From Lachnospiraceae bacterium (GTDB lineage Bacteria > Bacillota > Clostridia > Lachnospirales > Lachnospiraceae), in contig JAJQGP010000100.1 in NCBI GenBank assembly GCA_021200475.1, positions 1-35,096 of the forward strand: DNA of 35,096 nt, written 5' to 3'. Shown in pieces: positions 12,473 through 30,901 of the stretch (its first letter is position 1; every line of letters starts with the position of its first letter). The position numbers were made by a program, and so were the translations under genes. The notes beneath the pieces are model-generated. The model was given only the letters and a program-made list of their open reading frames with translations. It made no database searches and had not been told where the DNA came from.

Positions 12473-13744
12473 CTAATCTTTCAGGCACCCTATCGGCACG
12501 ATGAAAACCCCATCTTCCCTCTGATAGGCACATTCTGTTCCTGTCAAAACCATCAAAAAGGAAGGCTCTCTCATTTTTTCTGTATTGACCTTCTCCTTCA
12601 ATTCACGAAGATGAACGGCGGCTTCCTCAATTTCTCTGGATCCCAGTTTCACTTCTACCGCTGCCCAGCGTCCGTCGTTCAGACAGATCACTGCATCTGC
12701 CTCCAGGCCGCTGGCATCCCGATAATGAAACACCTGGCCATCGTTCGCCTCAGCGTATATCCTCATATCCCTGTCGCAGAGAGATTCAAACAAAAATCCA
12801 AAATAACAGAAGTCATCCAGCAGACATTCCGGCGTAAGCCGCATGATGGCTGTGGCAATAGACGGATCGGTGAATTGCCGTTTTGGAGAGGTACGAATTG
12901 CTGTTTTGGAACGGAGTGCCGGATTCCAGGCGGGAAGATTTTCCGTTACAAAAATCCGATCCAGCGCATTCAGATACTGACTGATCGTTTTTTCTGACAG
13001 TGAATCATCTCCATCCCCCATCGCTATGTCGTTATGAATGGTCCGAATCGTGGCAAGAGTAGAAATATTGCGCGAGAGCGAGCGCAGCAATGCCCGCACA
13101 CGGGTTGGACTTTTTTCAATTCCATCCACCCTGGAGACATCTGCGTTAATCACTGCCTCTACATAATCAATCGCATGACGCATGGCAACTTTTTTTTCTT
13201 CTCCGATCGATGCCGGCCAGCCGCCTCTCACAATCACATCAGCAATCTCTTCAATCGTTAACTCCGAAATTTCTTCAACATCCGTATCGCCATCAAATAA
13301 TTTTTTCAATGAAACGCTGCCATTTGATTCTCCTGATTCGTACAGACTCATAGGGCGCATCAGCATTCTTGAAATACGACCGATACCAGTGTGCTGAACG
13401 ACATTATCTCTGGGTACGGCGGAACCAGTCAGGATAAACTGCCCGGTCTCTCCCCTCTGATCCACTGTAAATCGTACGGCATCCCATAAGACAGGAGCCA
13501 TCTGCCATTCATCCAGAAGCCTGGGGGTCTCTCCCTTCAGCAGCAATGAAGGTTTTGTATCAGCTGCTTTTAAATAAGAAATCACACGGTCCGGATCCTG
13601 CATAAAAAGCTGGCTGTTTGACGCTTCCATGGCCGTTCTTGTCTTTCCGCACCACTTGGCTCCCTCAATCAGCACCGCTCCGCTTGCTTCCAGTCTCTGC
13701 TGCAATATTTTATCCGCAATTCGCTTTACATACGTTTTTTCCAT
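12473..13744 (-). CDS. AAA_14/DUF4143 family ATPase
   Basis: A 423-residue ATPase. Walker A is LIEGAKWCGKTRTA (near residue 26), Walker B is PRLLDEWQMAP, and a sensor-like QFILTGSAVP follows. The DUF4143 region contains LNALDRIFVTENLPAWNP and RQFTDPSIATAIM. At the C-terminus GLEADAVICLNDGRWAAVEV gives the Asp and ExK of a PD-(D/E)XK-like core. The family (COG1373) is widespread, often multi-copy, with no settled function. GGAGG precedes ATG 13744 by about 8 nt. A promoter containing a 12-bp inverted repeat, and a 23-nt tandem array, lie immediately upstream. The gene appears intact among remnants. Confidence 0.88.
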   Translation of the reverse strand: MEKTYVKRIADKILQQRLEASGAVLIEGAKWCGKTRTAMEASNSQLFMQDPDRVISYLKAADTKPSLLLKGETPRLLDEWQMAPVLWDAVRFTVDQRGETGQFILTGSAVPRDNVVQHTGIGRISRMLMRPMSLYESGESNGSVSLKKLFDGDTDVEEISELTIEEIADVIVRGGWPASIGEEKKVAMRHAIDYVEAVINADVSRVDGIEKSPTRVRALLRSLSRNISTLATIRTIHNDIAMGDGDDSLSEKTISQYLNALDRIFVTENLPAWNPALRSKTAIRTSPKRQFTDPSIATAIMRLTPECLLDDFCYFGFLFESLCDRDMRIYAEANDGQVFHYRDASGLEADAVICLNDGRWAAVEVKLGSREIEEAAVHLRELKEKVNTEKMREPSFLMVLTGTECAYQREDGVFIVPIGCLKD

Positions 13745-13771
13745 GAGTTTGCCTCCATCTTACTACCACTT

Positions 13772-13820
13772 ACAGAAGTTCCGATACATACAGTATACAC
13801 GGAACTTCTGTTTTTATCAA
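13772..13820 (-). promoter_or_regulatory. Promoter and inverted-repeat operator of the DUF4143 ATPase
   Basis: On the minus strand TTGATA (13815-13820) is 17 nt from TATACT (13792-13797). The 12-bp arms ACAGAAGTTCCG (13772-13783) and CGGAACTTCTGT (13800-13811) are perfectly complementary and bracket the -10. The distal arm coincides with the first, degenerate unit (from 13804) of the adjoining 23-nt array, so the array runs into the core promoter. Confidence 0.75.
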
Positions 13821-14010
13821 GAGTTTACTTCCGATTTTATTGGCATTTTGCTTCTGAATTTATTGGTGTTTTACTTCCGATTTTATTAGTATCTCGCTTC
13901 CGATTTTATTAGTATTTTACTTCCGATTTTATTAGTATTTTACTTCCGATTTTATTAGTATTTCACTTCCATTTTGGGTTTGATTTTACTTCTGATAATT
14001 TCAATTATTT
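13804..14010. repeat. 23-nt tandem repeat array upstream of the DUF4143 ATPase
   Basis: Nine units of ACTTCCGATTTTATTAGTAT plus three T start at 13804, 13827, 13850, 13873, 13896, 13919, 13942, 13965 and 13988, always exactly 23 nt apart. The central units are nearly identical and the outer ones diverge. The unit nearest the gene overlaps the -35 box and the operator arm. No coding role is seen. It has no spacers, so it is not CRISPR. Confidence 0.9.
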
Positions 14011-14301
14011 CATAAAACCTTCAGCGGTACAAAGGACCATATTCCTTACATGTTGCATAGTCTGCAGCCTGCACAACCGCTTCCCCTGGAAACCACCGGC
14101 TACTGCGTTTTTACCCCAAGCCTTCCTCATGCCTGCTAAGCTCCGCCGACCTGGGATGAAACGATCAACATGGCTCCACAAGAAACCTGCATCGCCTTTC
14201 CCCTCGTCCACCCATCGGCGTTTCCCAGGAAAGACCATAAACAACCCTCCGGTTTCCTCTGTGATCAATATGACTTTTTTCTTCTGTCGTAATCGATCCG
14301 G
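14011..14301. other. Decayed sequence
   Basis: Short protein-like stretches occur in different minus-strand frames (for example AVVQAADYATCKEYGPLYR before a stop near 14030) with no start or ribosome site. They may be the far end of the heparinase-like gene or another remnant. I cannot identify them. Confidence 0.4.
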
Positions 14302-14826
14302 TCACTCCCTCCACCGTGATCCGGCAGGAATGTTCTTTTCCTTTTCCAGAAAAGGAAGTAGCACGCGATCCAATACATTTTCTCTTGCCTGCTCCCGTAT
14401 CTCCGGATTCAGCCGGTCTCCGGCCAGAGCCAGGATTTCTGCCAGCGCCTGTCCGGTTTCCGACGCGAACAGATCCACTGTTTTGCGCCAGGAAAGGTCC
14501 TTCGCGCGGTCTACATGGGCGGGCAATGCCCAGCATTCCTCCTCACAGATTCCGCGAATCACTTCTTCCAGCTTCACCGCATCGTCCGGATTCTCCCGAA
14601 GGATTGTCATGCAGCCGTATACGGACAGATATTTCCTGCGCTGAAAGTAGACGTTCTCGTAAAGCAGCCGGTTTCCTGTCGTTTCAAACAGCGAAAACAG
14701 TGACTCACTCAGCTCCGGCATGGGGACATTCCGCATGGATTTAGCGTTTTTCTCCATGCATTTGATATATGCAGCAAGGTTTGTTTCCAGTCCTCTCTTT
14801 TTCACTTCCGATAATTGCTGTGGCAT
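14302..14826 (-). pseudogene. Heparinase II/III-type polysaccharide lyase, N-terminal fragment
   Basis: From ATG 14824-14826 (MPQQLSEVKKRG), with AGGAAGG about 9 nt upstream, about 174 residues are readable. NRLLYENVYFQRRKYLSVY, then IRGICEEECWALPAH and VDLFASETGQALAEILALAG followed by a helical RVLLPFLEKE are typical of the alpha/alpha-toroid start of heparinase II/III-family lyases. The family is usually over 550 residues, so the C-terminal beta-sandwich is missing; the frame closes at 14302 and decayed sequence follows. Upstream, a 33-nt-period array could have been read as a WKNT-rich extension, which I reject as coding. Confidence 0.65.
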
Positions 14827-14879
14827 GAGATTATCCTTCCTCATTTTGCTCCGAATCAAGGATGACTTTATCACAGCGC

Positions 14880-14994
14880 TTGTATTTTTCCAACCACACT
14901 CTTGCGTTTTTCTTGTATTTTTCCAACCATAAATGCATTCATATTTTGTATTTTTCCAACCTGGTTTCGAGCAAAATTTTGTATTTTTCCAACT
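14880..14994. repeat. 33-nt-period array of a 15-16-nt motif
   Basis: TTGTATTTTTCCAAC starts at 14880, 14913, 14946 and 14979, exactly 33 nt apart, with about 17 nt of unrelated sequence between copies. On the minus strand the motif is GTTGGAAAAATACAA, and it shares GGAA...AAATAC with the 23-nt array. Copies lie between the heparinase fragment and its upstream region. By analogy with the other arrays, a lost ATPase gene may once have followed. Confidence 0.9.
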
Positions 14995-15093
14995 ATATGG
15001 TTTATAAAATTGCAAAACCATCTATATATATTGCATCCAAACATTCTACACATATAACACACCTCACAATTTCTGCGTTTCCGAAAAATCAAC

Positions 15094-15122
15094 TTGAAAT
15101 AACGACACTTCTCCTGTATGAT
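15094..15122 (+). promoter_or_regulatory. Promoter of the MATE gene
   Basis: TTGAAA (15094-15099), 17 nt, TATGAT (15117-15122), about 115 nt before the start codon. The leader holds an inverted repeat, CTCCAGA/TCTGGAG, that could be a regulator site. Confidence 0.6.
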
Positions 15123-15238
15123 GAAGAAAAAATGCTTCGCATCACACTCCAGAGTCTGACGATTCTGGAGTTGCCGATTGAAACAATTGCTACAGAAGCT
15201 TTTCTGAATAACAAATGCCATACCGGAGGAATGTATCT

Positions 15239-16594
15239 ATGTCTGCAAAAAAAGAAATCTCATTTACAGAAGGCCCTATCTTTGGGTCTCTGATCCGCTT
15301 CGCGGGGCCGGTTCTGGGCGCCTTGATCCTGCAGGCCGCCTACGGAGCCGTAGACCTGCTTGTGGTCGGTCAGTTCGGCGATGCCGCCAGCATCTCCGCC
15401 GTCGGTACCGCAAGCAGCTTTATGCAGATGGTGACTTTTATTATCACCAGTCTGGCGATGGGCTCCACGGTGCTGATCGGCCAGCATATCGGCGAAAAGA
15501 ATCCGAAAGCGGCGGGTGATGCCGTCGGCACCACCATCATTCTGTTCGCTGTCATCGGCATCGTCCTGACCGTTGCGCTGGAAGCCTCGGCGGAAGGGAT
15601 TGTCCGGATCCTGCAGGTACCGGAGAGCGCCACAGAGAAAGCAGTCCTGTATCTTCGCATCTGCTCCGGGGGGCTTCTGGTCATCATCACCTACAATGTC
15701 ATCAGCGGCATTCTTCGCGGCATCGGGAATGCCAATCTTCCGTTTGTTTTTGTAAGCATTGCCTGTGTGGTAAACATCGCCGCCGACCTGCTTCTGACCG
15801 GCCTGCTCAGCATGGATGTGGCGGGCGTGGCGATTGCCACCGTTTTCGCCCAGTTTGTCTCGGTCGTCATTTCCCTTGGCATCATCCGCAGACAGAAAAT
15901 GCCGCTCGAATTCTCATTGAAACAGTGCCGCATCTACCCGGTCGAGCTGAGAAAAATCCTGCATGTCGGAATTCCCATCGCCCTGCAGGAGACGCTGAGT
16001 GAAGTCTCCTTTCTGGTGATCAATTCGATTGTAAACAGCATGGGACTGATGCCGTCCGCCGGATACGGCGTCGCCCAGAAGCTGGTTTCCTTTATCATGC
16101 TGGTTCCTTCTTCCGTTATGCAGAGTGTCTCCGCCTTTGTGGCGCAAAACATCGGCGCCGGGCAGCAAAAGCGGGCCCAGCGTGGTTATCTGACCGCGAT
16201 GGGCACCGGCGTGTGCATTGGAGTCTTCGTATTCCTGGCCGGCTTCTTCGGAGGCTCTGCCCTGTCCTCGCTGTTCACCTCCGATCCGGAGGTCATCGCG
16301 GAGAGTGCCAGCTATCTGCGCGGATTTTGCCTGGATTGCATCCTTACCTGCGTCATGTTCAGTACAAGCGGCTACTTCAATGGCTGCGGAAACAGTATGC
16401 CCGTCATGCTCCAGGGCATCTCCGCCGCCTTCTGTGTCCGCATCCCGGTAGCACTTTATATGGCATCCCTGCCAGGTGCCTCACTGTTCTACATCGGTCT
16501 GACGACTCCCATCTCCACGCTTTACGGGATTCTCTTCTATGGAATCTGCTTCGCGTGGATGCGCAGAAAAAAAGGAAAGAAACGCGCTGCATGA
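15239..16594 (+). CDS. MATE family multidrug/organic-cation exporter
   Basis: A 451-residue polytopic membrane protein with about 12 hydrophobic segments in two similar halves. It opens KEISFTEGPIFGSLIRFAGP, a typical MATE start, and carries GQHIGEKNPK after the second helix pair and AQNIGAGQQKRA in the second half. These proteins export drugs or metabolites using Na+ or H+ gradients; the substrate cannot be told. The start at 15239 is chosen for CGGAGGA 8 nt upstream. It appears to have its own promoter. No regulator gene adjoins it on the same strand. Confidence 0.9.
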   Translation: MSAKKEISFTEGPIFGSLIRFAGPVLGALILQAAYGAVDLLVVGQFGDAASISAVGTASSFMQMVTFIITSLAMGSTVLIGQHIGEKNPKAAGDAVGTTIILFAVIGIVLTVALEASAEGIVRILQVPESATEKAVLYLRICSGGLLVIITYNVISGILRGIGNANLPFVFVSIACVVNIAADLLLTGLLSMDVAGVAIATVFAQFVSVVISLGIIRRQKMPLEFSLKQCRIYPVELRKILHVGIPIALQETLSEVSFLVINSIVNSMGLMPSAGYGVAQKLVSFIMLVPSSVMQSVSAFVAQNIGAGQQKRAQRGYLTAMGTGVCIGVFVFLAGFFGGSALSSLFTSDPEVIAESASYLRGFCLDCILTCVMFSTSGYFNGCGNSMPVMLQGISAAFCVRIPVALYMASLPGASLFYIGLTTPISTLYGILFYGICFAWMRRKKGKKRAA

Positions 16595-16604
16595 ATATTT
16601 TTTC

Positions 16605-16633
16605 TTGCTTTTCACTTTTTCCTGTGCTATGAT
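16605..16633 (+). promoter_or_regulatory. Promoter of the peptide ABC operon
   Basis: TTGCTT (16605-16610), 17 nt, TATGAT (16628-16633), right after the MATE stop. The start of transcription would be near 16640, only about 10 nt before a terminator-like hairpin. Confidence 0.6.
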
Positions 16634-16650
16634 GAATGAGATTTGCAAAG

Positions 16651-16683
16651 GAGCAGACCAAAGGGAATGGTTTGCTCTTTTTT
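16651..16683 (+). terminator. Terminator or attenuator in front of the binding-protein gene
   Basis: GAGCAGACCA (16651-16660) pairs with TGGTTTGCTC (16668-16677), ten pairs including one G-U, followed by six T. It may end MATE transcription or attenuate the downstream operon, because the likely promoter lies before it. Confidence 0.75.
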
Positions 16684-16733
16684 ATGCACACAGGGGCATA
16701 AATCGTCCCGCTCAATTAAGGAGGATAGGATCC

Positions 16734-18356
16734 ATGAAAAAAATATCAAGACGAGATTTCCTGAAGGGTTCGGCCAGCGCGCTGGCAGCATCCGTAATGT
16801 TTGGCAGCGGACTGAATGTCGCTGCGGAAGAGGGCGCAGATGGTACGCTTTACATCGCCTGGACTTCTGACATGCAGACGATGGATGTCCACACGACCAG
16901 CTCCAACTACCAGATTCCGCTGAATATTTTTGACCGTCTGTTCGAGATTCAGCTGAATGACGACGGCTCGACAGAGCTGGTAAACAGCCTGGTAGAGGAT
17001 TACACGGTATCAGAGGATGGACTGACTTATGAGTTTACCCTGCATGAGGGCGTCCTTTTCTCAGATGGCACACCGCTGACGTCGGCTGATGTAAAATATA
17101 CCTTTACCCGTATGCTTGCGCTTCCTGAGAGCGTACAGACCGACTTTGCCAACGCGATTGCAGGTTCTGACGAGGTCATGGAAGGCACGGCAGAGGAGCT
17201 GAGCGGTATTGAAGTCGTTGATGACACGCACTTTACCGTCACCTTAAGCGAACCGTTCGCGGGCTTTTTGTATCAGCTGGCGACGCCGTCCTGCTGTATC
17301 TACAGTGAGTCAATTGTAGAAGCCGCTGGCGATGATTATGGCATTGATCCGGCTCTGACGATCGGCACCGGCCCGTATGTAGTGACCAGCTGGGATCACG
17401 ACAACAGCATCATTCTGGATCTGAACCCGAATTACTGGGGCGAGACACCGTCGGTGACGCACGTAGAGATTTCCATCATTCCGGATGCTTCTACAATGAG
17501 CATGATGTTCCAGAGCGGTGAGATCGATATTCTGGACTGCGATTACCTGGATTCTTCTGTCGTGGAATCAACTTATAAGACTGCTTACGCGGATCAGATT
17601 GTATCGGCAAACCGCCTTTCCATTACTTACTTTATGCTGAATGAGAACGTGGAGCCGCTCAATGATGTGAACGTGCGCAAGGCGATCCAGATGGCGGTTG
17701 ACCGTGAGAGCATCCTGACGAGTGTTTACAGCGGCGAGGGTACGATAGAGGACGGCATTTTCCCGACCGGTCTGATTGGCCACTCCGAGGAAAACCAGGG
17801 CTGGCTCGAATATGATCCGGAGGGTGCAAAGGCGCTTCTGGAGGAAGCGGGCTATGCAGACGGCTTCACCATGGAGATTTCTTCCGATGAATCCGCATCC
17901 TCCGGTGTCCTTCTGGTATTGCAGATTATCCAGCAGAATCTGGCTGATGTGGGTATCACAGCGGAAATCGTATCCTACGATGAGGCGAGCTGGCTGGCAC
18001 TGAGAAAGAGCGGTGAGATGTGCAGCTTTGTCGCTACCTGGACGGCCGATTACAATGATCCGGATAACTTCATCTACACCTTCTTCGGATCTGCTGACAA
18101 GTCTCTGATCCGCAGCGGAAACTATTATAATACCGAGGTCATGGAGCGGGTTGCCGCAGCGCGTGCGATCGTGGATGATGACGAGCGCCTGGCAGAGTAT
18201 GCCGCCCTGGAAGCACAGATTGTACAGGAGGATGCCGCGTGGGTGCCGCTCTTCAGCCGTACACACCTGTTTGTCGTGAGCGACCGGGTTGCTTCCTATA
18301 CGCCGCACTGGGCCGGATACAGCGATTACAGCTTCGTAGGGGTAACGCTGGCGTAA
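16734..18356 (+). CDS. ABC transporter substrate-binding protein, peptide/nickel (DppA/OppA) family
   Basis: 540 residues of the SBP_bac_5 fold. It captures peptides or similar solutes outside the membrane for the permeases encoded downstream. The N-terminus MKKISRRDFLKGSASALAAS has a canonical twin-arginine motif followed by a hydrophobic stretch, with no lipobox Cys. Family features are TFTRMLALPES, GTGPYVVTSWDHD, LNPNYWG and VRKAIQMAVDRESIL. The start is set by AGGAGG about 9 nt before ATG 16734; a longer upstream frame is spurious. Expression is probably higher than that of the permeases, since a strong hairpin follows the gene. The absence of a lipid anchor in a Gram-positive-type cell is notable. 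Confidence 0.9.
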   Translation: MKKISRRDFLKGSASALAASVMFGSGLNVAAEEGADGTLYIAWTSDMQTMDVHTTSSNYQIPLNIFDRLFEIQLNDDGSTELVNSLVEDYTVSEDGLTYEFTLHEGVLFSDGTPLTSADVKYTFTRMLALPESVQTDFANAIAGSDEVMEGTAEELSGIEVVDDTHFTVTLSEPFAGFLYQLATPSCCIYSESIVEAAGDDYGIDPALTIGTGPYVVTSWDHDNSIILDLNPNYWGETPSVTHVEISIIPDASTMSMMFQSGEIDILDCDYLDSSVVESTYKTAYADQIVSANRLSITYFMLNENVEPLNDVNVRKAIQMAVDRESILTSVYSGEGTIEDGIFPTGLIGHSEENQGWLEYDPEGAKALLEEAGYADGFTMEISSDESASSGVLLVLQIIQQNLADVGITAEIVSYDEASWLALRKSGEMCSFVATWTADYNDPDNFIYTFFGSADKSLIRSGNYYNTEVMERVAAARAIVDDDERLAEYAALEAQIVQEDAAWVPLFSRTHLFVVSDRVASYTPHWAGYSDYSFVGVTLA

Positions 18357-18704
18357 GAATAATAAAAACAAGAACGATTCAGAACAGCAGGCCATTGACT
18401 GTTCTGAACCGTTACGAATGATACAATGAGATGCAATGCTGCATAGCGAACTCGCCCGCGGCTGGTCAAACTGGCCGCGGGCTTCCTTTTGTCGGAACAT
18501 TCCTGTCCGGCAGAGGCTAAGCGGACACGAGAGAACCCGCCCGATTATGCGTGAAGGAACATGAGACGGTCGGTTACGGTTCACAACCCGGCCACGCATC
18601 TGCTGCGTGGTCGGGGCTTATCCCACACGCAGTGTGGAATGCCACCCGGCGAAGGTTGAGAACGCAGTGGCAGTAACAAAAGCTGAGAAAGGAGACTTTA
18701 CCGG
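18357..18704 (+). other. Structured gap between binding-protein and permease genes
   Basis: About 350 nt with no gene but several hairpins. TTCAGAACAG/CTGTTCTGAA lies at 18378-18408. GCCCGCGGC/GCCGCGGGC (18454-18462 and 18474-18482) precedes TTCCTTTT and looks like a terminator. A 12-pair stem with one G-U follows around 18586-18613, then CCACAC/GTGTGG. The gap probably limits read-through into the permease genes or stabilises the binding-protein mRNA. I do not recognise a known riboswitch. Confidence 0.6.
18454..18490 (+). terminator. Intra-operon terminator
   Basis: A GC-rich 9-bp perfect stem with an 11-nt loop, followed by TTCCTTTT, about 100 nt after the binding-protein stop. Confidence 0.65.
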
Positions 18705-19625: not shown

Positions 19626-19627
19626 CT

Positions 19628-20581: not shown

Positions 20582-20598
20582 AAGGAGGCAGATACGGA

Positions 20599-22733: not shown

Positions 22734-22756
22734 TCACTGCCGCGAAGATGAAAAAT

Positions 22757-22788
22757 CGAGTAGGAGGCGGCTCGTCGGCTCCTACTCG
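22757..22788 (+). terminator. Hairpin at the end of the peptide ABC operon
   Basis: CGAGTAGGAG (22757-22766) pairs with CTCCTACTCG (22779-22788) over a 12-nt loop. There is no T run after it, so termination strength is uncertain. Confidence 0.55.
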
Positions 22789-22838
22789 CCCGCGCAGGCT
22801 GCGTCCGGCGTCAATCGGAAAATACCTCTCGCAGTCCT

Positions 22839-23449
22839 GTGCAAATAAAATACCCTGATTTAACTTCTATTTTCATGCAGTCGCTTCACTTTCGCAAAAA
22901 TCTCCCCAAATTCTATCAGACAATTTCCGTCAAAAATCTGCACCGGAAATGTCTTGACAGACCAGAACTCGGTCATATCCTGATTTATGCCCATTCGGAT
23001 GATCTATGGAGTATCTTATGGGTTCACTTTAAGGGGACAGACGCCTGCTATTTCCCGCTCGAAGACTGCCGCATTATCCACTTTACCACCGAACACGCTA
23101 CGAACCGTATGCAATTTCTTTTTGATCTGCTCTTTCGTGTCCTCGACGGGAATTATACGCTTGGAAACTTTATCTATATTTCTCAGGTGCTCTCTTTAAT
23201 CCTCGCAGAGACGTATGACCGCGAAAAAAGGTTCTGCCTATGAGCTTCTTTATCAATCTGAAAATGAAACAGGCCTGCAAGCTGCTGCGCACGACAGACC
23301 TGTACATTTACGAAATCGCCCATGAACTGGGCTACACGGATCCCTACTATTTTTCCAGACAGTTTAAGAAAACAGTCGGGGTAGTTTCCATTCGATTCTA
23401 TAATGGTCTGAAACCCACGGTCTCAATTCCTGCTGTCTGTCCGGTTTGA
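22839..23449 (+). pseudogene. AraC-family regulator with internal deletion and frameshift
   Basis: The first frame (22839-23243) holds part of an AraC ligand-binding domain: HILIYAHSDDLWSILWVHF, then YFPLEDCRIIHFTTEHATNR and LGNFIYISQVLSLILAETYD. The second frame (23240-23449) begins inside the DNA-binding domain: FFINLKMKQACKLL and then the second helix-turn-helix IYEIAHELGYTDPYYFSRQF. The roughly 45 residues that should lie between, including the first helix-turn-helix, are missing, and the N-terminal cupin start is also lacking. It cannot be a working regulator. It may once have controlled the adjoining peptide ABC operon. Confidence 0.75.
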
Positions 23450-23535
23450 CCTGTTTGTCCGGCTTAGGCCTGCCTGTCTGGCTCAAACTCTTCTGTCTGG
23501 CTTAGACCCGTCTGTCCGGCTCAGATCTGTCTGTC
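23439..23535. repeat. 19-nt degenerate tandem repeat
   Basis: Five units of roughly GTCYGGCTYAGRCCTGTCT start at 23439, 23457, 23476, 23495 and 23514, with a partial sixth at 23533. Spacing is 19 nt except the first, at 18. The array fills the gap between the AraC remnant and the SGNH gene and supplies that gene's last codons (SEPDRRV). Confidence 0.8.
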
Positions 23536-24236: not shown

Positions 24237-24299
24237 ATTCTCCCACTCCAGTCTGATATTTTTTTCTGAAATTATACCCCCCCCCACTCCGGCACACAA

Positions 24300-24458
24300 T
24301 CAAGGGCTGTCAAAACTCCTGCCCGGCTCTGTGCAATCGAATAGGGGATTTCTCTCTCCCCTATCCGCCTGCGCCAGGCGGGTGCGGTGCAAACCGCAAA
24401 TTTACACACCCGCCTGTGTGCACAAGAAAGGTCGCAGCGGCCAATCCCGAGAAACATA
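24300..24458. other. Gap with several hairpins
   Basis: No gene. ATAGGGG/CCCCTAT (24341-24347 and 24358-24364) and a GC-rich CCGCCTG/CAGGCGG stem near 24365-24380 could end transcription from either side. CACACCCGCCTGTGTG near 24405-24420 is another short dyad. Confidence 0.45.
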
Positions 24459-25846
24459 CTACATCTTATCGAAGTCTACTAAGTGAACGTTGCCGCAGCT
24501 TTGCGAGACATCTATGGCATCCTGACTGAAGCCGGATTTTGAAAAAACAAAAAATTGCTTTTTTCGATATGTGAACAAATCTCCACGCTCCAGCAGACAC
24601 TTTACAACAGCTGCGTCTGTTTTCTCATTTCTCCATTTACACTCACCAAACAAAGCCTGATCCTCACAGACCGCCATCAGGTCAATTTCTTCCTGCCTTC
24701 TCGTTTTAGGATTATTCCCCCGCCAACGTCCCATCTTGCCTGCCGGAAATAATAAATCCGCATAAACAGATGGCTGAAATAAATATTGTATACAGATTTC
24801 TTCAAATATCTGTCCCATAAAATCGTTTATCTGAGGCAATACCAGAGACTCATAAATCATCGGTCCTGCCCCACGTATTATCGCGCTTGTATTCGGTCTC
24901 ACAAAACGATACCAGAACAGATACATACCGTCTGCCAGCCGGTAAATGGTTCTGCGGCTCGTCTCTGGATCCGCTATCGGAATCTCTTTTTTCACAATCC
25001 CAAGAGAAATCAATGACGCCAGCTGATTGCTGCAGCCACTGGTTTCCAGGCCTGTCTTCGTAGCAATCTCATTTAATCTGCTCGCACCGCCAGCGATCGC
25101 GGAAATAATCGAGTGATAGGTCATGGGCTCCTTCAGTTCCTGCTTCATTAAATTAAGAGGTTCTTCAAACAGGCGTCCGGATTCATCAAAAAATAACTGC
25201 TTAATATTTTCATGTACAGAAACATCTCCCTGAATGTGAGACAGATATTCCGGAATTCCCCCCGTTACGCCATAAAAAACAGCCTGTTCTTCTTTCTGAT
25301 AGCCACAGAGCATCTGCCGGGCTTCAAAAAATGTAAAAGGCTGAATCTTGAATTGAGCTGTGCGCCGTCCATATAAGGGACTTTTATATCCCAGAACCTG
25401 CTCTTCCATAAAGCTCATAGAGGAACCGCATAAAATAAAAAAAGACTGCTGTCCTTCCAGCAATTGTCGATATGGCTCTGCAGCATGGAAGAAATCACCG
25501 GATAGGAGGCTGCCAGATAGGGATATTCATCAATAGCCACAATAAGCCTTTTCCCACTTTTCGCAAGAGTATCCAGGTGCCCCAGCATGGACTCATAATC
25601 CTTGAATTCAAAGTTTTCCTGCAGGCTGTCTTCCTGTGAAAGGAAAGCTCTTGACAGGCCTGCCAGATTCTCCTTCTTCGCGCCTTCAACGCTCATGTAA
25701 TAATATCCCTGTTTATCCTTCATGAATTCCCGGATCAGTGTCGTCTTGCCCACCCGGCGTCTCCCGTACACAACTGCAAACTCGAAGTTGCCGCTCTGGT
25801 ACATCCTGTTTAATTTGCTTAATTCCCGTTCTCTTCCAACGAACAT
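24459..25846 (-). pseudogene. Archaeal-type ATPase with DUF234 nuclease-like domain, frameshifted in a 7-base homopolymer
   Basis: Translation should start at MFVGRERELSKLNRMY (ATG 25846, AGGAGG 6 nt upstream). Walker A is YGRRRVGKTTLIREF and Walker B is LIVAIDEYPYLA. After DNCWKDSSLFL the frame is lost at seven A on the plus strand (25437-25443). One extra base would give SSLFLILCGSSMSFMEEQ, which continues in the other frame to 24459. That part has a winged-helix-like region (NEIATKTGLETSGCSNQLAS) and RRQEEIDLMA...FGECKW, a PD-(D/E)XK-like core. As it stands the product stops after about 143 residues. A real mutation, slippage or a homopolymer read error are all possible. Confidence 0.82.
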
Positions 25847-25925
25847 ACCACGCCTCCTCACTGGTTTTATGTTTTTGCCCATGTCACGCAGAAAATGCGT
25901 GGCTTGGGTGTGAACAATAACCAAC

Positions 25926-25977
25926 GCTATACGAATATTTGCTAATTGTTCAATTACTAATTGTTTAATTAGTAATT
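25926..25977 (-). promoter_or_regulatory. Promoter and repeats of the DUF234 ATPase gene
   Basis: On the minus strand TTGAAC (25948-25953) is 16 nt from TATAGC (25926-25931). Two 15-bp direct repeats, CTAATTGTTCAATTA (25942-25956) and CTAATTGTTTAATTA (25957-25971), overlap the -35. An 11-bp perfect inverted repeat, AATTACTAATT/AATTAGTAATT, spans 25952-25977. This is consistent with a repressor operator. Confidence 0.65.
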
Positions 25978-26055
25978 TTGTTATATACTACCACAGCAGA
26001 CAGCGATCGTCAACGGATTTCCGTTCGATTCCCAATCCGCGGAGGATTTCTACAA

Positions 26056-26598
26056 TCACAGCTCCCCGTTTAATACCTGCTCCCGCAGCTTCATCCACAG
26101 CCTGCCCATATGATTCTCGCCATCGCGGTCCGGTCCCCAGCCCCAGAAGGTGTCCTTTGGAGAATCCTCGACGATCCGGTTATGCTGCGTCTTTATCAGC
26201 ATTTCTCTGACATACGGATGCTGCTTTACTTTTTCACGCAAAAGTTCTTCCATCACCTCCAGTTTTTCCGTCTCCCAGTCCGGTCTTTTTCTGTCCTTAT
26301 TCGCCACAGAAATCTGCTTCGCTTCGTAAGGCGACCCGGCGTGCCGAATCTGCTCTGCCACATCATCAGCCACCTCCAGAAAGGTGCTCGCCTGGTAGGC
26401 TTCCTCTACAGTGGCGTATACCCAACCCTTGTATTCGATTTTAAACGCACTGTAATTATCCAGACAGTAAAATTCTCTGGGGAAGAAGCCAATCGCCTTA
26501 TTTACTCCCGCTGCCAGCCATGGATCCCGGTAGTCCTCTGGTTTCAGGTTTACACTGGACTCGCATTCCGGAGTCTTTGTATTTTTTTCATCACACAT
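26056..26598 (-). CDS. NADAR family protein (YbiA-like N-glycosidase)
   Basis: 180 residues of the NADAR superfamily. Family signatures are FYCLDNYSAFKIEYKGW followed by YATVEEAYQASTF, and at the C-terminus FWGWGPDRDGENHMGRL with WMKLREQ. Members cleave N-glycosidic bonds in ADP-ribose-related or riboflavin-pathway compounds; some remove ADP-ribose from guanine in DNA and act as antitoxins to DarT-type toxins. No DarT-like gene is seen nearby, so its role here is open. It has its own promoter at 26669-26697, and GAGAGGG lies before the ATG. Confidence 0.85.
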   Translation of the reverse strand: MCDEKNTKTPECESSVNLKPEDYRDPWLAAGVNKAIGFFPREFYCLDNYSAFKIEYKGWVYATVEEAYQASTFLEVADDVAEQIRHAGSPYEAKQISVANKDRKRPDWETEKLEVMEELLREKVKQHPYVREMLIKTQHNRIVEDSPKDTFWGWGPDRDGENHMGRLWMKLREQVLNGEL

Positions 26599-26668
26599 CT
26601 TTTATCCCTCTCTTTAAAAATAATACTGGCCTGCTGCTGCAAGGAACTTCAGACAAACCTTTTCATAC

Positions 26669-26697
26669 AATATATCCTTCATTGTCCGATTATGCAA
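26669..26697 (-). promoter_or_regulatory. Promoter of the NADAR gene
   Basis: TTGCAT (26692-26697), 17 nt, TATATT (26669-26674) on the minus strand, about 70 nt before the start codon. Confidence 0.6.
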
Positions 26698-26803
26698 ACA
26701 TTTTTTGGTTTTGTCCGTTTTTTCGTATCAATAAAAACAAGTTAATAATAATCCCTTACTGAAAAACCTGTGGCAGAAATCTCAAGGCATTGAGACTGTG
26801 TGC

Positions 26804-26833
26804 AAAACTCCCCCGCAAGTGCGGGGGAGTTTT
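26804..26833. terminator. Terminator of the hydrolase/DUF362 operon
   Basis: A perfect 13-bp stem, AAAACTCCCCCGC with GCGGGGGAGTTTT, and a 4-nt loop, 35 bp past the DUF362 stop. The A/T ends make it bidirectional. Confidence 0.9.
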
Positions 26834-26868
26834 ATTATTCCAAAATTAATACTGGACTTCATTCTTCC

Positions 26869-27810
26869 TTATATAAATGGTTTTACATCCTTCACGGCAT
26901 CTTCCACGGAGATTTCCATATCCATATGGTCGATATCTGCCAGAATATACTGGTCATTGCCCATACCCAGCTCTTTCATGTAGGTCAGCTGACGTAGTCC
27001 ATGGCGTGATTCGATGCGTTCCACCAGGTCGTGATGGTCCTCTTCCTTCAGAGCGTAGACCATATCAATGGACGCCTGATCGGCCGCCAGAATGTCTGTC
27101 GAGGCCAGGATACCGATATTTGGCGTCACGACCGGCATAGCCGCTGTTCCCTCACAATCACAGGAAACCGACATATTCCGCAAAACATTGATATAAGCGA
27201 TATGCGCCCCAAAGTGGTCCACCACAGACTTGGTAGATTCCGTCATACGTTCCATAAATTCTTCCTTGCCAATATCCCACATATCCGAAGAACCCGGTGT
27301 TGTGTGAATCATTGCTTTTCCGATCCGGCCATCCGCGCAGCCAATCCCGATATTCTTATTAGAGCCGCCGAAACCGCCCTTGGTATGACCCTTAAAATGC
27401 GTCAGCACAAGCAGAGAGTCGTAATCCAGAATTCCTCTTCCTACAGACATCTCCTTGAACCATTTGCCGCCTTTTACCGGCAGCATGACCGTTCCATGCT
27501 CATCCATAATATCCACCGGACAGAACGTCCAGCCATTGGTTTGAATGGTTTCTCTGTGCTGTTCAGTCGTATAGCGGTCTCCTTCATAGTAGGTGTTCGT
27601 CTCTACAATCGCAGCTCCCGGAAGCTCCGTTTTGATCAGCTGCTCCACCCAGGGACGGGGAATGATGTTTGGTCCATGTTTTTCTCCGGTATGCAGCTTG
27701 ATTCCCACCTTTCCGCTGATGCCGGAAGCGATTCGCCCATAAATGCGCAGCAGGCCTTCCGCGGAAAGATCACGGGTAAAGTAAACCATCGATTTTTTAT
27801 CAGTCATCAT
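26869..27810 (-). CDS. DUF362 domain-containing protein
   Basis: 313 residues matching DUF362 (PF04015) throughout: VGIKLHTGEKHGPNII, then ETNTYYEGDRYTTEQH, LTHFKGHTKGGFGGSNKNIG with IGCADGRIGKAMIH, and PNIGILASTDILAADQASID. No ferredoxin-like Cys clusters (CxxCxxC) are attached, so this is the short form. The function is unsettled. It is the last gene of a three-gene minus-strand operon, 20 bp after an alpha/beta hydrolase gene, and is followed by a strong terminator. Either of the first two Met codons could start it. Confidence 0.85.
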   Translation of the reverse strand: MMTDKKSMVYFTRDLSAEGLLRIYGRIASGISGKVGIKLHTGEKHGPNIIPRPWVEQLIKTELPGAAIVETNTYYEGDRYTTEQHRETIQTNGWTFCPVDIMDEHGTVMLPVKGGKWFKEMSVGRGILDYDSLLVLTHFKGHTKGGFGGSNKNIGIGCADGRIGKAMIHTTPGSSDMWDIGKEEFMERMTESTKSVVDHFGAHIAYINVLRNMSVSCDCEGTAAMPVVTPNIGILASTDILAADQASIDMVYALKEEDHHDLVERIESRHGLRQLTYMKELGMGNDQYILADIDHMDMEISVEDAVKDVKPFI

Positions 27811-27830
27811 GCGTCTCCTTTCATCTTTGC

Positions 27831-28838
27831 TTATTTCAGATACATCTTGAAAAACGATTCCATTTTGTCGAACGGAATGATGTCCGTCTGGTCATAAAGA
27901 TCCGTATGAACGGCTCCCGGAATAATCAGAAGCTCCTTATTGTCGCCGGTCAGCTTCGCAAACGCATCCTTGCTGAAATAGCAGGAATGCGCCTTTTCTC
28001 CATGGATGACAAGGACGGCGCTGCGGATTTCCTGGCTGTACTGCAAAATCGGCATATTCAGGAACGACTGGCAGCCGGTCACATTCCACCCGCCATTGGA
28101 ATTCAGGCTGCGGGGATGATAGCCGCGCTCCGTCTTGTAATAATCATAATAATCCTTCACAAAGAATGGCGCGTCCTCCGGAAGCGGGTCAACCACGCCG
28201 CCGCCCAGGGCATAGCTGCCGTTTTTGTAATCGACAATGCGCTGCGCGCAGAGAGCCCTGCGCTTCTCATAGCGGGCCTCCTCGCTATCTTCACTGTCAA
28301 AATATCCGTTCGCATTCACACGGGTCATGTCGTACATCGTAGAAGCGACCGTAGCCTTGACGCGGGTATCCAGCGCCGCTGCATTCAATGCCATGCCGCC
28401 CCAGCCGCAGATACCAATGATACCGATCCGCTCCGGATCTACATTATCCTGTACGGAAAGAAAGTCCACCGCTGCCATGAAGTCCTCCGTGTTGATGTCC
28501 GGGGACGCCATGTAACGGGGCTGACCGCCGCTCTCACCGGTGTAGGACGGGTCAAAGGCGATCGTCAGAAAGCCCCGTTCCGCCATCGTCTGCGCGTACA
28601 GTCCGGCTGCCTGCTCTTTGACTGCACCGAAGGGGCCGCAGACCGCGATAGCCGGGAGCCGTCCGGATCCGGCAGCCTCGCCGCCGCGAGAGGACTCCTC
28701 CACATCCTTTGGCTCGTAGAGATCCGCCGCCAGAGTGATACCGTAGCGGTTGTGGAAGGTTACCTTCCTGTGATTTACCCTGTCGCTCTTTGGGAAAGTC
28801 TTATCCCATTCCATTGTCAGATTTAATTTTTCTTCCAT
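27831..28838 (-). CDS. Alpha/beta hydrolase, dienelactone-hydrolase-like with Cys at the nucleophile position
   Basis: 335 residues. The N-terminus has KVTFHNRYGITLAADLYEP. The core has FDPSYTGESGGQPRY and the nucleophile elbow IGIIGICGWGGMALNAA, where Cys replaces the usual Ser, as in dienelactone hydrolases. LVIHGEKAHSCYF and IIPGAVHTDLYD supply the likely acid and His. The substrate is unknown. It lies between a small helical protein and DUF362 on the same strand, apparently one operon. A LysR regulator upstream is the probable controller, given the duplicated regulatory sequence. Confidence 0.85.
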   Translation of the reverse strand: MEEKLNLTMEWDKTFPKSDRVNHRKVTFHNRYGITLAADLYEPKDVEESSRGGEAAGSGRLPAIAVCGPFGAVKEQAAGLYAQTMAERGFLTIAFDPSYTGESGGQPRYMASPDINTEDFMAAVDFLSVQDNVDPERIGIIGICGWGGMALNAAALDTRVKATVASTMYDMTRVNANGYFDSEDSEEARYEKRRALCAQRIVDYKNGSYALGGGVVDPLPEDAPFFVKDYYDYYKTERGYHPRSLNSNGGWNVTGCQSFLNMPILQYSQEIRSAVLVIHGEKAHSCYFSKDAFAKLTGDNKELLIIPGAVHTDLYDQTDIIPFDKMESFFKMYLK

Positions 28839-28923
28839 AATAATAATTGCCTCACTTTCTCAATCGTCCGAATTCGTTTTGCCGGTACACCGCCTGCTAC
28901 CGTATATGGCGGAATATCTTTGG

Positions 28924-29166
28924 TCACGACTTCTTTGCCCCCTTTTTATCCAGCCAGTTCACAAGGTAGTCCAGGCAGTCCAGCTTTTTCTGTTCCGTAT
29001 GGATCTGATCCAGTAAATTTCTCCGGCTGTTTTGCAATGTAAGCCGTAATTCCCGTTCTCGTCCTTCTTTTTGCAGCAGGACACAGCGAGCGATCATTTC
29101 CTCTCCAAAACCGATGTCCACGAGATTCTGGTAGAAACGTTGGGTTTCGTTGTTTGCTTCCGGCAT
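28924..29166 (-). CDS. Small helical protein, unknown function
   Basis: 80 residues, charged and mostly helical: FYQNLVDIGFGEEMIARC, RERELRLTLQNSRRNLLDQI and KKLDCLDYLVNWLDKKG. It has an excellent ribosome site (GGAGGTGA, 8 nt before the ATG) and its own promoter, so I take it as real. The pattern of a helical hairpin with LDCLDYL recalls the C-terminal part of MerR-type regulators without the DNA-binding domain; this is only a resemblance. It is the first gene of the hydrolase/DUF362 operon, with 85 bp to the next gene. Confidence 0.7.
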   Translation of the reverse strand: MPEANNETQRFYQNLVDIGFGEEMIARCVLLQKEGRERELRLTLQNSRRNLLDQIHTEQKKLDCLDYLVNWLDKKGAKKS

Positions 29167-29191
29167 GACTGCTCACCTCCCCGTTGCCTTG

Positions 29192-29220
29192 ATTTTATAA
29201 TGTGGGCGTCAGAATATCAA
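29192..29220 (-). promoter_or_regulatory. Promoter of the small protein/hydrolase/DUF362 operon
   Basis: TTGATA (29215-29220), 17 nt, TAAAAT (29192-29197) on the minus strand, overlapping copy A of the 76-bp repeat that carries LysR-type sites. Confidence 0.65.
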
Positions 29221-29285
29221 ATACTTTGTTTCTATTTCTGGTTATTCTTGAAATGAATAACTGCTTATGCTATACTATTATCAGA
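29210..29285. repeat. 76-bp direct repeat, copy A (regulatory region)
   Basis: Matches 30918-30993 at 66 of 76 positions without gaps. It holds a plus-strand promoter, TTGAAA (29248-29253), 17 nt, TATACT (29271-29276), and the dyad GTTATTC/GAATAAC around the -35, a LysR-type site. No gene follows this promoter on the plus strand here. Confidence 0.88.
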
Positions 29286-29335
29286 TTGCAGAAAATAAAG
29301 AGGGAAAATCTTACGCATCCCCCGGAGGGTTTTTG

Positions 29336-29370
29336 TCCAATAGGGAAGTTCGGAGAACTTTCCTATTGGA
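29336..29370. other. 16-bp hairpin in the gap before the ATPase 3' end
   Basis: The arms 29336-29351 and 29355-29370 pair over 16 positions with one G-U and a 3-nt loop. No T run follows on either strand, so it is not a classic terminator. The rest of 29286-29444 shows no gene. Confidence 0.6.
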
Positions 29371-29444
29371 TAAAAAAGTTCCGCCTATGAGCAGAACTTT
29401 CATAAGAGTCTCCAGAACCTGCCGTGGCGAACGAAAAGTAAAGA

Positions 29445-30776
29445 CTACAGGAACGGTGTCATATAGAAAGGCAGGCAAAAAATATCCTGTTCTTTCCGGA
29501 TATCCTTCGTGTAAATCAGATAGCGGTTGCGGATTCTGGAGGAAAACTTCGTCTGAAAAGCATCCAGAGAAGCGTGCGTCTGGTAACCGGATGATTTCAC
29601 TTCCATTGGGCAGATTTTTCCCTTTCTGGAAATCAGGAAGTCCACCTCATAGTTCTGCCTGGATGTTTCCTTTGGAAATGTATAATAATACAGCTCATTT
29701 CCGGCTGCCTTCAGCATCTGCGCAACAATATTTTCATAAAGATACTCCAAATCTGCACTCAGGTGATCATTAAGAAGCTTTTCATAAATTTCATTTTCAG
29801 TATAATCACTGTCCTTGAATGACAGAGTCACAAATAATCCCGTGTCAGCCAGAAAAAGCTTATACCGCCGCGGGTCTTTATGAAGAGCCATACCCGCATT
29901 TGGATTATCCGCGTGATAAGCAATATTCACTGTCAGGGAATCCTGCATATCCGCTATAATCTCCCGAACCCGTTCTTCTTTCTCACCGGCAATCACACTG
30001 GACACCTGATAACGCGAAGCGTTTTTGTGAAGCTCGGCAGGGATCGCATCAAACAGCATCCCCGCACGGCCTGACGGGTCTATTTTTCTGAAATCATCCT
30101 CATACAGCTCCAGAATACTTCTCTTCATCTGGTCGACGATACTCATGTTGTTGGTTGAAAGATAGGTGTCTACCGCCTGCGGCATCCCTCCTACCAGCAT
30201 ATAAAGGCGGAAGTCCCGCATCAGGCGCCTGTTCATGGCGTCGCCAAGAGGTCTCATCTTCTCATAAGCCTCGCGCAGCAGCGGAATCGTTGTCTGATCT
30301 CCCAGAGCCCATCGAAATTCCTCATAATCCAGCGGATACAGGGTCAGCCTGGTCTCTTCACTCGGGATTACTATATTTTTAATATTCTTTTTGATGGAAA
30401 GCAAAGAGCCTGTTTCAATATAATCATACCTTCCATCTTTCACCAGATGCTTGATTGCCTGTCTGGCCAGGGGCTGCATCTGCACCTCATCAAAAATAAT
30501 CACTGATTTCCGCGCTGTCAGGTTCACCCGGTAAATCATTTGCAGGCGCAAAAACAAATAATTCAAATCAGATAAATCACTGAACAGATCATTTACCTCC
30601 TGCGACGCAACAGAAAAATCAATCAAGATATAGCTTTCGTATTCCTTCCTGGCAAATTCCTCCACCAGAGTCGATTTTCCCACCCGCCGTGCTCCTTTAA
30701 TCAGCAGAGCCGTCTTTCCATCAAATCCACTTTTCCAGTCGAGCATTTTATCGTACAATTTTCTTTTAAATATCAT
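29445..30776 (-). CDS. AAA_14/DUF4143 family ATPase
   Basis: 443 residues from ATG 30776 (MIFKRKLYDKMLDWK), with AAGGGG 5 nt upstream. Walker A is LIKGARRVGKSTLVEEFA and Walker B is KSVIIFDEVQMQPLARQ. YMLVGGMPQAVDTY lies mid-protein, and RYKLFLADTGLFVTLSF is in the DUF4143 region. The C-terminal NYEVDFLISRKGKICPMEVK forms a PD-(D/E)XK-like core. It is only distantly similar to the ATPase at 12473-13744. Upstream, a repeat array overlaps its promoter and its own ribosome site. The gene plus array is flanked by 76-bp direct repeats, suggesting it was inserted between the hydrolase operon and lysR. Confidence 0.88.
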   Translation of the reverse strand: MIFKRKLYDKMLDWKSGFDGKTALLIKGARRVGKSTLVEEFARKEYESYILIDFSVASQEVNDLFSDLSDLNYLFLRLQMIYRVNLTARKSVIIFDEVQMQPLARQAIKHLVKDGRYDYIETGSLLSIKKNIKNIVIPSEETRLTLYPLDYEEFRWALGDQTTIPLLREAYEKMRPLGDAMNRRLMRDFRLYMLVGGMPQAVDTYLSTNNMSIVDQMKRSILELYEDDFRKIDPSGRAGMLFDAIPAELHKNASRYQVSSVIAGEKEERVREIIADMQDSLTVNIAYHADNPNAGMALHKDPRRYKLFLADTGLFVTLSFKDSDYTENEIYEKLLNDHLSADLEYLYENIVAQMLKAAGNELYYYTFPKETSRQNYEVDFLISRKGKICPMEVKSSGYQTHASLDAFQTKFSSRIRNRYLIYTKDIRKEQDIFCLPFYMTPFL

Positions 30777-30901
30777 GAAAATCCCCTTCTTCACATACTT
30801 CCGAAGCTATTTTGCCGAAAATCCCTCTTTTCAAAATAACTATTATGCCGAAAATCCCTCTTTTTATATGCCATTATATGCCGAAAATCCCTCTTTTTCA
30901 A
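30777..30901. repeat. 33-nt-period array overlapping the ATPase promoter and ribosome site
   Basis: ATGCCGAAAATCCCTCTTT units have their GAAAATCCC core at 30817, 30850 and 30883 (33 nt apart), and a diverged copy at 30777 forms the ribosome site of the ATPase gene. On the minus strand TTGAAA (30896-30901) and TATAAT (30873-30878) make a promoter whose 17-nt spacer is the outermost repeat unit. The other units are in the transcribed leader. Confidence 0.88.

Follow-up and report, generated by a model that had tools for sequence, protein, structure and literature searches.

Introduction

Do ATPase/nuclease-like genes that are preceded by direct repeats encode the proteins that read those repeats? 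The question is raised by a stretch of 35,096 nt from a Lachnospiraceae bacterium (contig JAJQGP010000100.1 of assembly GCA_021200475.1), hereafter the window. A sequence-only reading had noted five ATPase genes of three families (AAA-ATPase_like, AAA_14/DUF4143 and archaeal ATPase/DUF234), direct repeats across the promoters of three of them and one further array, and had suggested that each ATPase, or its complex, recognizes a repeat private to it and either regulates its own synthesis or labels its locus. The five genes are present according to Pfam. Both AAA_14/DUF4143 proteins, encoded by the 12473 and 29445 genes (Table 1), matched PADLOC profiles of PDC-S01, with E values of 6.7 × 10−64 (PDLC04790) and 1.6 × 10−95 (PDLC04786), respectively. 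PDC-S01 is listed in PADLOC as a candidate for phage defence (preprint of Payne et al, 2024, which PMC12988326 cites); the available text of that article describes an ATPase fused to PD-(D/E)XK, the fourth commonest prokaryotic defence system and unvalidated, and neither promoter arrays nor self-recognition were found in it. A role of the AAA_14/DUF4143 family against viruses in bacteria and archaea is suspected.

Results

Repeat arrays across the promoters of two AAA_14/DUF4143 genes

The −35 box of the 12473 gene was located inside the last, degenerate unit of its 23-bp array, and the repeat unit of this array was unique to its locus in the 3.2-Mb genome when up to three mismatches were allowed. 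At the 29445 gene, the outermost of the three 33-bp units overlapped the −35 box and filled the −35/−10 spacer, with two further units downstream of the −10; its unit was private in the same genome except for one match with three mismatches. The ownerless array contained four copies of a 16-mer; neither a family gene nor a fragment of one was found beside it, and it matched, with 77% identity over 79 nt, the array belonging to family gene L154 in genome G008. These three arrays stand as first noticed. The two 15-nt direct repeats reported at 25942–25971 turned out to overlap a perfect palindrome, a different arrangement, in front of a DUF234 gene that is split into two overlapping frames (25415–25924 and 24459–25463).

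Table 1. Coordinates of the repeat arrays, genes and associated features in the window
Feature	Positions	Strand	Remarks
12473 gene, AAA_14 + DUF4143, ATPase/nuclease-like, 423 aa	12473–13744	−	Pfam; 23-bp clade
Array upstream of 12473 gene, eight contiguous 23-bp units	13808–13991	−	TRF score 220; lag score 100, shuffle P = 0.005; 0–8 mismatches per unit to consensus
Putative promoter of 12473 gene	13792–13820	−	−35 TTGATA 13815–13820, −10 TATACT 13792–13797, 17-bp spacer
Ownerless array, four units, exact 33-bp spacing	14880–14994	−	
Palindrome, 11-bp arms, upstream of split ATPase_2/DUF234 gene	25952–25977	.	Not an array of the described kind
29445 gene, AAA_14 + DUF4143, ATPase/nuclease-like	29445–30794	−	Pfam; 33-bp clade; start GTG 30794 or ATG 30776
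Array upstream of 29445 gene, three units, exact 33-bp spacing	30813–30898	−	Units 30813–30832, 30846–30865, 30879–30898
Putative promoter of 29445 gene	30873–30901	−	−35 TTGAAA 30896–30901, −10 TATAAT 30873–30878, 17-bp spacer
Segment with 29445 gene and array	29286–30916	.	Absent at the same site in five genomes of the genus

The Walker lysine K34, D78 and the PD-(D/E)XK residues D350, E364 and K366 of the 12473 protein were invariant in 76 aligned relatives, and D385, E398 and K400 were invariant in 14/14 sequences of the 33-bp clade, giving the ATPase plus PD-(D/E)XK architecture with catalytic residues of PDC-S01. A putative winged helix was indicated by a motif and by weak matches to Pfam PF00486 in 4 of 8 fragments (E 0.02–0.11). 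The Pfam matches of the window proteins were AAA_14 and DUF4143 rather than Orc/Cdc6, and sequence searches of the PDB yielded no relative that covers the protein.

Arrays of two pitches characterize one ATPase family

The upstream regions of 312 family genes were surveyed. Because of how loci were picked (genus loci, 30 plus a further 60 hand-picked rows, all among the matches listed; named loci, best 80 of 588 relatives), the sample is not random and the following proportions are not population frequencies: a period of 23/46 was found in 149 genes and one of 32–34 in 49, 15 more genes had other lags (all P ≤ 0.02), 78 had no array (P > 0.1) and 36 were unclear, indicating that the array is not universal in the family. 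Lag 23/46 occurred in 63/79 loci of the named set and 78/86 of a held-out set. The 23-bp arrays shared a common framework and were found in archaeal MAGs as well as in several phyla of bacteria. Pitch was locked to clade, with 23 and 32–34 interchanging three times on the family tree, and up to 23 family copies per chromosome were present in the genus among the matches listed.

As a control, 559 other genes were scored, of which 31 (about 5.5%) passed the shuffle test at P ≤ 0.01, with scattered lags. Lag 23 or 33 was seen in five of the 559: a decayed family gene, an unrelated gene, two genes lying divergently next to family genes, and a histidine kinase gene (L265), which is preceded by an array of the same unit type as family arrays.

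The same score test (P ≤ 0.01) in the window's genome was positive for 9/17 DUF4143 matches, 0/6 DUF234 matches (one at P = 0.03) and 2/27 AAA-ATPase_like matches, with a third at P = 0.015 (lags 26, 20 and 25). Even with mixed thresholds that favour the ATPases, 3/27 AAA-ATPase_like against 31/559 other genes gave no excess (Fisher P = 0.20). The generalization that promoter repeats are common to three ATPase families was therefore rejected by these counts, and the claim survived the comparison of repeat frequency and position with other genes for AAA_14/DUF4143 only. Two of the nine DUF4143 positives were unusual: L013 lacks the N-terminal part, and the array at L002 is what remains of an adjacent family gene, which genome G010 has and this genome has lost by deletion.

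The arrays are in register with the promoter

In 23-bp arrays, 46/65 −35 boxes were located at unit phase 8–10 (Rayleigh P = 5 × 10−13); part of this clustering is inherent in the units, many of which carry a TTGCCA-like sequence. The test on −10 boxes, restricted to those outside the array, avoids this, and 36/53 were found at phase 8–11 (P = 2 × 10−7). The sites of the 23-bp clade thus lie in register with the promoter, as those of an autorepressor would. In the 33-bp clade, 29/49 arrays overlapped a promoter-like pair, the window gene being the one inspected closely. An RNA or CRISPR-like reading of the repeats was not favoured, since the majority of 23-bp units precede the predicted −10.

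In a rival reading, the protein would use its array to activate or pulse its own promoter, or to position itself at its gene for another purpose; sequence alone does not tell repression from activation. Activators bind upstream of the −35 box, and the bulk of each 23-bp array is found there; many −35 boxes are intact, and the units are in phase with the −10. Furthermore, the available text of PMC9738581 describes Orc1-2, an AAA+ winged-helix protein, as an activator of damage-response genes. Against this, the last 23-bp unit in the window holds the −35 box, and at the 29445 gene one unit fills the spacer and two more lie past the −10, which are the positions of a repressor. A non-repressive use of the array is thus considered unlikely.

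Gene and array often have tight boundaries

Among 964 pairs of family loci at 65–99% protein identity, 70 pairs, which are not independent of one another, were examined. No common downstream DNA was found in 54/70, and similarity stopped within 20 nt of the stop codon in 47 of these 54. Where an array was present, similarity tended to begin near its outer edge (L216/L243, start −58, edge −58; L167/L349, start −109, edge −108). The pairs L233/L238, L349/L351 and L110/L112 were syntenic by BLAST.

Such boundaries, the absence of the 29445 segment from five genomes and the fact that the repeat-covarying loop described below adjoins the catalytic motif would suit a single-gene mobile cassette, in which the array is primarily the recognition end and the nuclease moves or copies array and gene at the repeats. 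However, array-less family genes showed equally tight boundaries (L080/L095 and L134/L135), indicating that the array is not needed for them. The ends were looser in L147/L135, where similarity extended about 136 nt beyond the outer side of the array and 44 nt past the stop, and the L104/L002 pair shows loss of just the gene, with retention of the array. The segment in the window is flanked by a 77-bp direct repeat (29209–29285 and 30917–30993, 87% identity), which fits ordinary recombination equally well. No 3′ repeat was seen at the family loci examined, where repeats occurred on one side only and the ends varied; the two-sided terminal repeats and exact sites of insertion that mark a mobile element were thus not found. 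We regard such a primary role of the array as decidedly improbable.

Repeat bases covary with two segments of the protein

Covariation between protein residues (numbered as in the 12473 protein) and positions of the 23-bp unit was analysed in 143 arrays; one of 69 phased arrays (L203), in which a second gene reads the same array backwards, had been dropped beforehand. Repeat bases covaried with residues 250 and 252 of the putative winged-helix recognition helix and with residues 344 and 345 of a loop adjoining PD-(D/E)XK, the top couplings (residue × unit position) being 252 × 22 (z = 11.9), 252 × 0 (z = 10.9), 344 × 13 (z = 10.0) and 250 × 0 (z = 9.8). Permuting units within protein clusters left these couplings in first place or close to it, with 288 × 2 ranking first in one of two such permutations. 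In phylogenetically independent pairs, K/R344 and G12 gave 9.2 in the same direction and 0.1 in the opposite one (P = 0.004), and among 48 base states K344 ranked 12G, 13C and 14C first and K/E252 ranked 22G and 21G first.

The code was further evaluated on 75 held-out arrays, with pairs drawn solely from the training table, unit phases re-estimated on all arrays without residues, non-cognates of at least 60% protein identity left out and three arrays dropped for at least 90% identity to training proteins. The cognate repeat was ranked at percentile 0.865, compared with 0.589 ± 0.050 for random columns, 0/100 of which reached 0.865; adding the pair 252 × 21, noticed in the combined data, gave 0.859. 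Among rules fixed before the held-out arrays were fetched, K252→G22 held in 7/7, K344→G12C13 in 18/22 and D252→C22G0 in 12/21, and N252→C0 (2/5) and E252→GG (5/12) did badly. Two rules were found afterwards, D252→G0 (20/21 held-out, 13/17 training) and P252→A0 (7/8 held-out, 3/3 training). Covariation and held-out prediction indicate that, in the 23-bp clade, the protein determines site specificity. No clear code emerged from the 58 arrays of the 33-bp clade, where 272 × 16, in the putative helix, ranked fourth (z = 5.3).

Overall, protein identity and unit similarity were correlated with a Spearman coefficient of 0.37, as would be given by ancestry alone if another regulator read the repeats. 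Such a reading is made very unlikely by the couplings, which sit in two short segments, persist within clusters and recur in phylogenetically independent pairs, and by held-out units being predicted far better than by random columns. Since a few protein residues predict the repeat sequence, it is probable that every such gene is self-reading and self-controlling via a private DNA address. Recognition of its own array by the AAA_14/DUF4143 protein, as predicted from these comparisons, is strongly supported. The original suggestion of a private repeat and self-controlled synthesis is thus well supported for this family by privacy, register and held-out covariation, and it did not extend to DUF234 or AAA-ATPase_like genes.

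Discussion

We consider it likely that the ATPase-nuclease oligomerizes on its private array, one protomer per unit, and represses its own promoter. The AAA_14/DUF4143 (PDC-S01) protein would probably be both ATPase-nuclease and regulator of its own transcription, each protomer probably contacting one repeat unit with two of its parts. The winged-helix recognition helix (residues 250, 252 and perhaps 256) would read unit positions 21–2, and the loop 344–345 by the PD-(D/E)XK active site would read positions 11–14, about one helical turn off. A fixed protomer pitch (23 bp for one clade, 32–33 bp for the other) would presumably arise from ATPase-domain contacts. A row of protomers covering the −35 box or the −35/−10 spacer would thereby repress the gene and keep a dangerous nuclease scarce. 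Loss of the protein from the array, through capture on invading DNA or a change in nucleotide state, would turn on expression. As paralogues have their own repeat sequences, many copies could coexist in one genome without cross-repression.

Iteron plasmid Rep proteins also combine direct repeats near a 22-bp pitch with winged-helix reading and autorepression; they are not known to have an AAA+ or nuclease domain and sit at plasmid origins. The 23-bp pitch is close to that spacing, as would be expected if the arrays were sites of replication origin or partition, in the manner of iterons or of the origin recognition boxes (ORBs) beside orc1/cdc6 genes. The resemblance to haloarchaeal orc/cdc6–ORB pairs points the same way: archaeal Orc1/Cdc6 proteins have AAA+ and winged-helix domains (the latter putative here), diverse paralogues and repeats by their own gene (PMC3528665, available text). 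In Orc1-2, a transcription regulator, the ATPase and winged-helix domains both contact DNA, and ATP hydrolysis matters (PMC9738581, available text). The available parts of both articles describe ORBs that mark origins, with no mention of a PD-(D/E)XK nuclease and no description of a promoter pitch of the PDC-S01 kind. Up to 23 copies per chromosome of the genus among the matches listed and the phasing of arrays to the promoter argue against origins, as do the few relatives in plasmid records (223/72,556 at E ≤ 1 × 10−10, all below 60% identity) and phage records (4/50,697), leaving this reading a very slim chance. A phage-borne system was also rejected: four relatives were confirmed among 13 pattern matches in viral contigs, in a search that reaches pattern-bearing sequences only. 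Finally, chance or ordinary AT-rich low-complexity DNA, to which the other genes passing the shuffle test might point, is refuted with near certainty by the scattered control lags, five of them at 23 or 33, and by family arrays having two lags across phyla and, at 23 bp, a common framework.

The proposed arrangement also differs from that of RptR, a repressor of a phage-defence island, which according to the available text of PMC12255303 is a 9-kDa dimer that regulates neighbouring genes through a 6-bp palindrome in 9-bp repeats. In PDC-S01 the candidate effector itself would bind, and the units are spaced at 23 or 33 bp and differ in sequence between paralogues.

More tentatively, PDC-S01 proteins may be a large class of self-addressed, immune-like nucleases that serve as sensor, repressor and address reader at once, forming ATP-driven rows on the private promoter array in which the active site is positioned at the repeat. 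A fast-evolving two-site code of winged helix and nuclease loop might insulate the many paralogues of a genome, resembling a natural set of orthogonal DNA-binding switches, and array and gene might spread as a single-gene cassette with its own regulation.

The promoter array together with the residue–base code makes PDC-S01 a testable system: the code predicts the DNA bound by each protein, and the arrays provide a reporter for the trigger. Private arrays would explain how up to 23 copies per genome, among the matches listed, are carried without cross-talk, and the code may offer a natural family of orthogonal repressor–operator pairs.

Promoter arrays of the PDC-S01 family

The window, part of a 3.2 Mb genome in 180 contigs, contains the five ATPase genes reported in the sequence-only reading. 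Two of them are AAA_14+DUF4143 genes (the 12473 and 29445 genes), and both proteins match the PADLOC candidate PDC-S01, which is reported to rank fourth in abundance among prokaryotic defence systems and to be as yet unvalidated (PMC12988326). Literature searches covering mainly open-access papers brought up no account of repeat arrays at the promoters of these genes.

Features of the window and their coordinates
Feature	Coordinates	Strand	Description
12473 gene, AAA_14+DUF4143	12473-13744	(-)	eight contiguous 23-bp units at 13808-13991
29445 gene, AAA_14+DUF4143	29445-30794	(-)	three units, exact 33-bp spacing, 30813-30898
Orphan array	14880-14994		four units, exact 33-bp spacing, without owner gene
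Inverted repeat	13773-13783, 13800-13810		perfect, 11 bp, around -10 box of 12473 gene; arms look like part of 23-bp unit
Palindrome	25952-25977		perfect; before DUF234 gene
77-bp element	29209-29285, 30917-30993		promoter-like, of LysR gene; two diverged copies
Dispersed repeat	29315-29377		palindromic (REP-like), about 63 bp, many copies across genus
Tandem repeat	23433-23535		19 bp
Tandem repeat	32762-32864		39 bp, within ORF 32620-34095
RelA/SpoT-domain gene	8778-9731		immediately after AAA ATPase gene
NADAR-domain gene	26056-26598

Self-similarity at lags 18-60 was scored in the 350 nt upstream of each gene against dinucleotide shuffles. In the window's genome, p ≤ 0.01 was reached by 9/17 DUF4143 matches, 2/27 AAA-ATPase_like matches and 0/6 DUF234 matches; promoter repeats as a property of these ATPases were thus confirmed for AAA_14/DUF4143 and not supported for the other two families. 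The 15-nt direct repeats claimed at 25942 overlap the perfect palindrome, and the DUF234 gene behind it is broken into two frames. Two of these nine DUF4143 matches are special: the L002 array was left from a deleted adjacent family gene, and the L013 gene is truncated. Scores of at least 18 were found for 5/251 genes of 20 control stretches, family genes included: four DUF4143 genes and a divergent neighbour of a fifth.

Of 559 other genes sharing no upstream DNA with any recognised family gene, 31 passed p ≤ 0.01, with scattered lags. Lag 23 or 33 occurred in five: divergent neighbours of family genes (L033, L249), a decayed family gene with upstream 33-bp repeats (L100, 3043-3477(-)), an unrelated case (L024), and a histidine kinase gene (L265, 5878-7158) preceded by a second 23-bp array (5728-5830), whose unit resembles that of the nearby family gene and which is possibly a trans target or a leftover.

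Pitch and promoter register

In the window's genus, 44/103 family genes had lag 23/46 (6) or 32-34 (38). Lag 23/46 was seen in 63/79 family genes taken from named archaeal and bacterial records, the latter spanning several phyla (the best 80 of 588 relatives), in 78/86 of a later-collected set and in 2/21 of the phylum set; in the class set 9/23 had an array lag, every one at 32-34. Over the whole non-random sample (n = 312), 149 genes had lag 23/46, 49 had 32-34, 15 had other lags and 78 showed no array (p > 0.1). On the tree, one pitch replaces the other just three times; pitch thus tracks protein clade. Arrays of 23 bp occurred among records of Bifidobacterium, Actinomyces, Corynebacterium, Treponema, Prevotella and Fibrobacter, and in MAGs labelled Methanomassiliicoccaceae, labels that may be wrong. 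A very long array of about 12 such units lies upstream of L194 gene 2992-4263.

The 23-bp period is the same length as the usual step from the start of a -35 box to that of its -10 box (6+17 bp). Among 65 -35 boxes of 23-bp arrays from the phylum to which the window belongs, 46 started at unit phase 8-10. This clustering is partly built in, because units often contain TTGCCA; -10 boxes beyond the array end were therefore tested alone, and 36/53 lay at phase 8-11 (Rayleigh p = 2 × 10−7). For the 12473 gene, the last unit contains the predicted -35 box; for the 29445 gene, the outer unit occupies the spacer of the predicted promoter, TTGAAA-17-TATAAT.

Residue-base covariation

The 23-bp unit combines a constant framework (A-tract, CAA) with variable positions. 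Across 68 arrays, the strongest couplings joined residue 252 (numbering of the 12473 protein) to unit positions 0 and 22 (z 10.8 each) and residue 344 to position 13 (z 9.2), the next best reaching z 6.6. Rules were fixed in writing before 75 new arrays (protein identity <90%) were collected. K252->G22 held in 7/7 and K344->G12C13 in 18/22, D252->C22G0 held in part (12/21), E252->G22G0 was weak (5/12) and N252->C0 failed (2/5). Noticed post hoc were D252->G0 (20/21 held-out, 13/17 training) and P252->A0 (7/8, 3/3). With all 143 arrays, 252x22, 252x0, 344x13 and 250x0 led (z 9.8-11.9) and stayed at or near the top when permuted within protein clusters; 288x2 ranked first in one of the two permutation settings.

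Phylogenetically independent pairs, on a tree made without the covarying columns, gave for versus against 9.2/0.1 for K/R344-G12 (p = 0.004), 7.2/0.8 for K/E252-G22 (p = 0.039), and, each at p = 0.031, 6.8/0.3 for D/E252-G0, 5.7/0 for N252-C0 and 6.5/0.1 for K344-GC. Using four residues and training-table pairs only, the cognate unit was ranked against the held-out units at a mean percentile of 0.865 (0.859 in an earlier ranking including one later-noticed pair); random variable columns gave 0.589 ± 0.050, and 0/100 matched 0.865.

Residues 250-256 fall within a motif typical of a winged-helix recognition helix, a putative assignment for which PF00486 gave weak matches in 4/8 fragments. Residues 344-345 directly precede catalytic D350, followed by E364 and K366, all invariant in 76 sequences. 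The two read sites lie about ten base pairs apart on the unit.

Privacy, probable leftovers and movement

In the window's genome, the 12473 unit (≤3 mismatches) matched its own array only (5 matches), and the 29445 unit gave three perfect matches in its own array and one 3-mismatch match elsewhere. The orphan unit (≤1 mismatch) gave four matches in its array and one elsewhere. No family gene fragment lies beside the orphan array, which over 79 nt shares 77% identity with the array belonging to a family gene (L154) from a different member of the genus. Since L104/L002 is a direct case of gene loss with the array retained, ownerless arrays are most simply leftovers of lost family genes.

Of 964 family gene pairs (65-99% protein identity), 70, not mutually independent, were examined. 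Downstream DNA was common to 16/70, and similarity stopped ≤20 nt from the stop codon in 47 of the remaining 54. Upstream, it often ended near the outer edge of the array. Tight boundaries do not require the array, since family genes that lack one show them too. Five genus genomes lack the 29445 segment at the corresponding site and carry the 77-bp element there once; in the window two copies of the element flank the segment, a pattern compatible with insertion by a single crossover or with deletion between repeats. The lone element of genus genome G010 joins the left half of one window copy to the right half of the other.

Recognition and likely function

The proposal that each ATPase recognises a private repeat gained ground for the 23-bp clade, where covariation and held-out ranking strongly support recognition by the protein of its own promoter array. 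In the 33-bp clade 58 arrays gave no clear residue-base code; there self-recognition of a private array is likely by analogy. As far as the accessible parts of their sources describe them, RptR comes closest in regulation, and Orc1-2 and the orc/cdc6-ORB pairs come closest in architecture. The most economical function for the family would be autorepression by an ATP-dependent oligomer.
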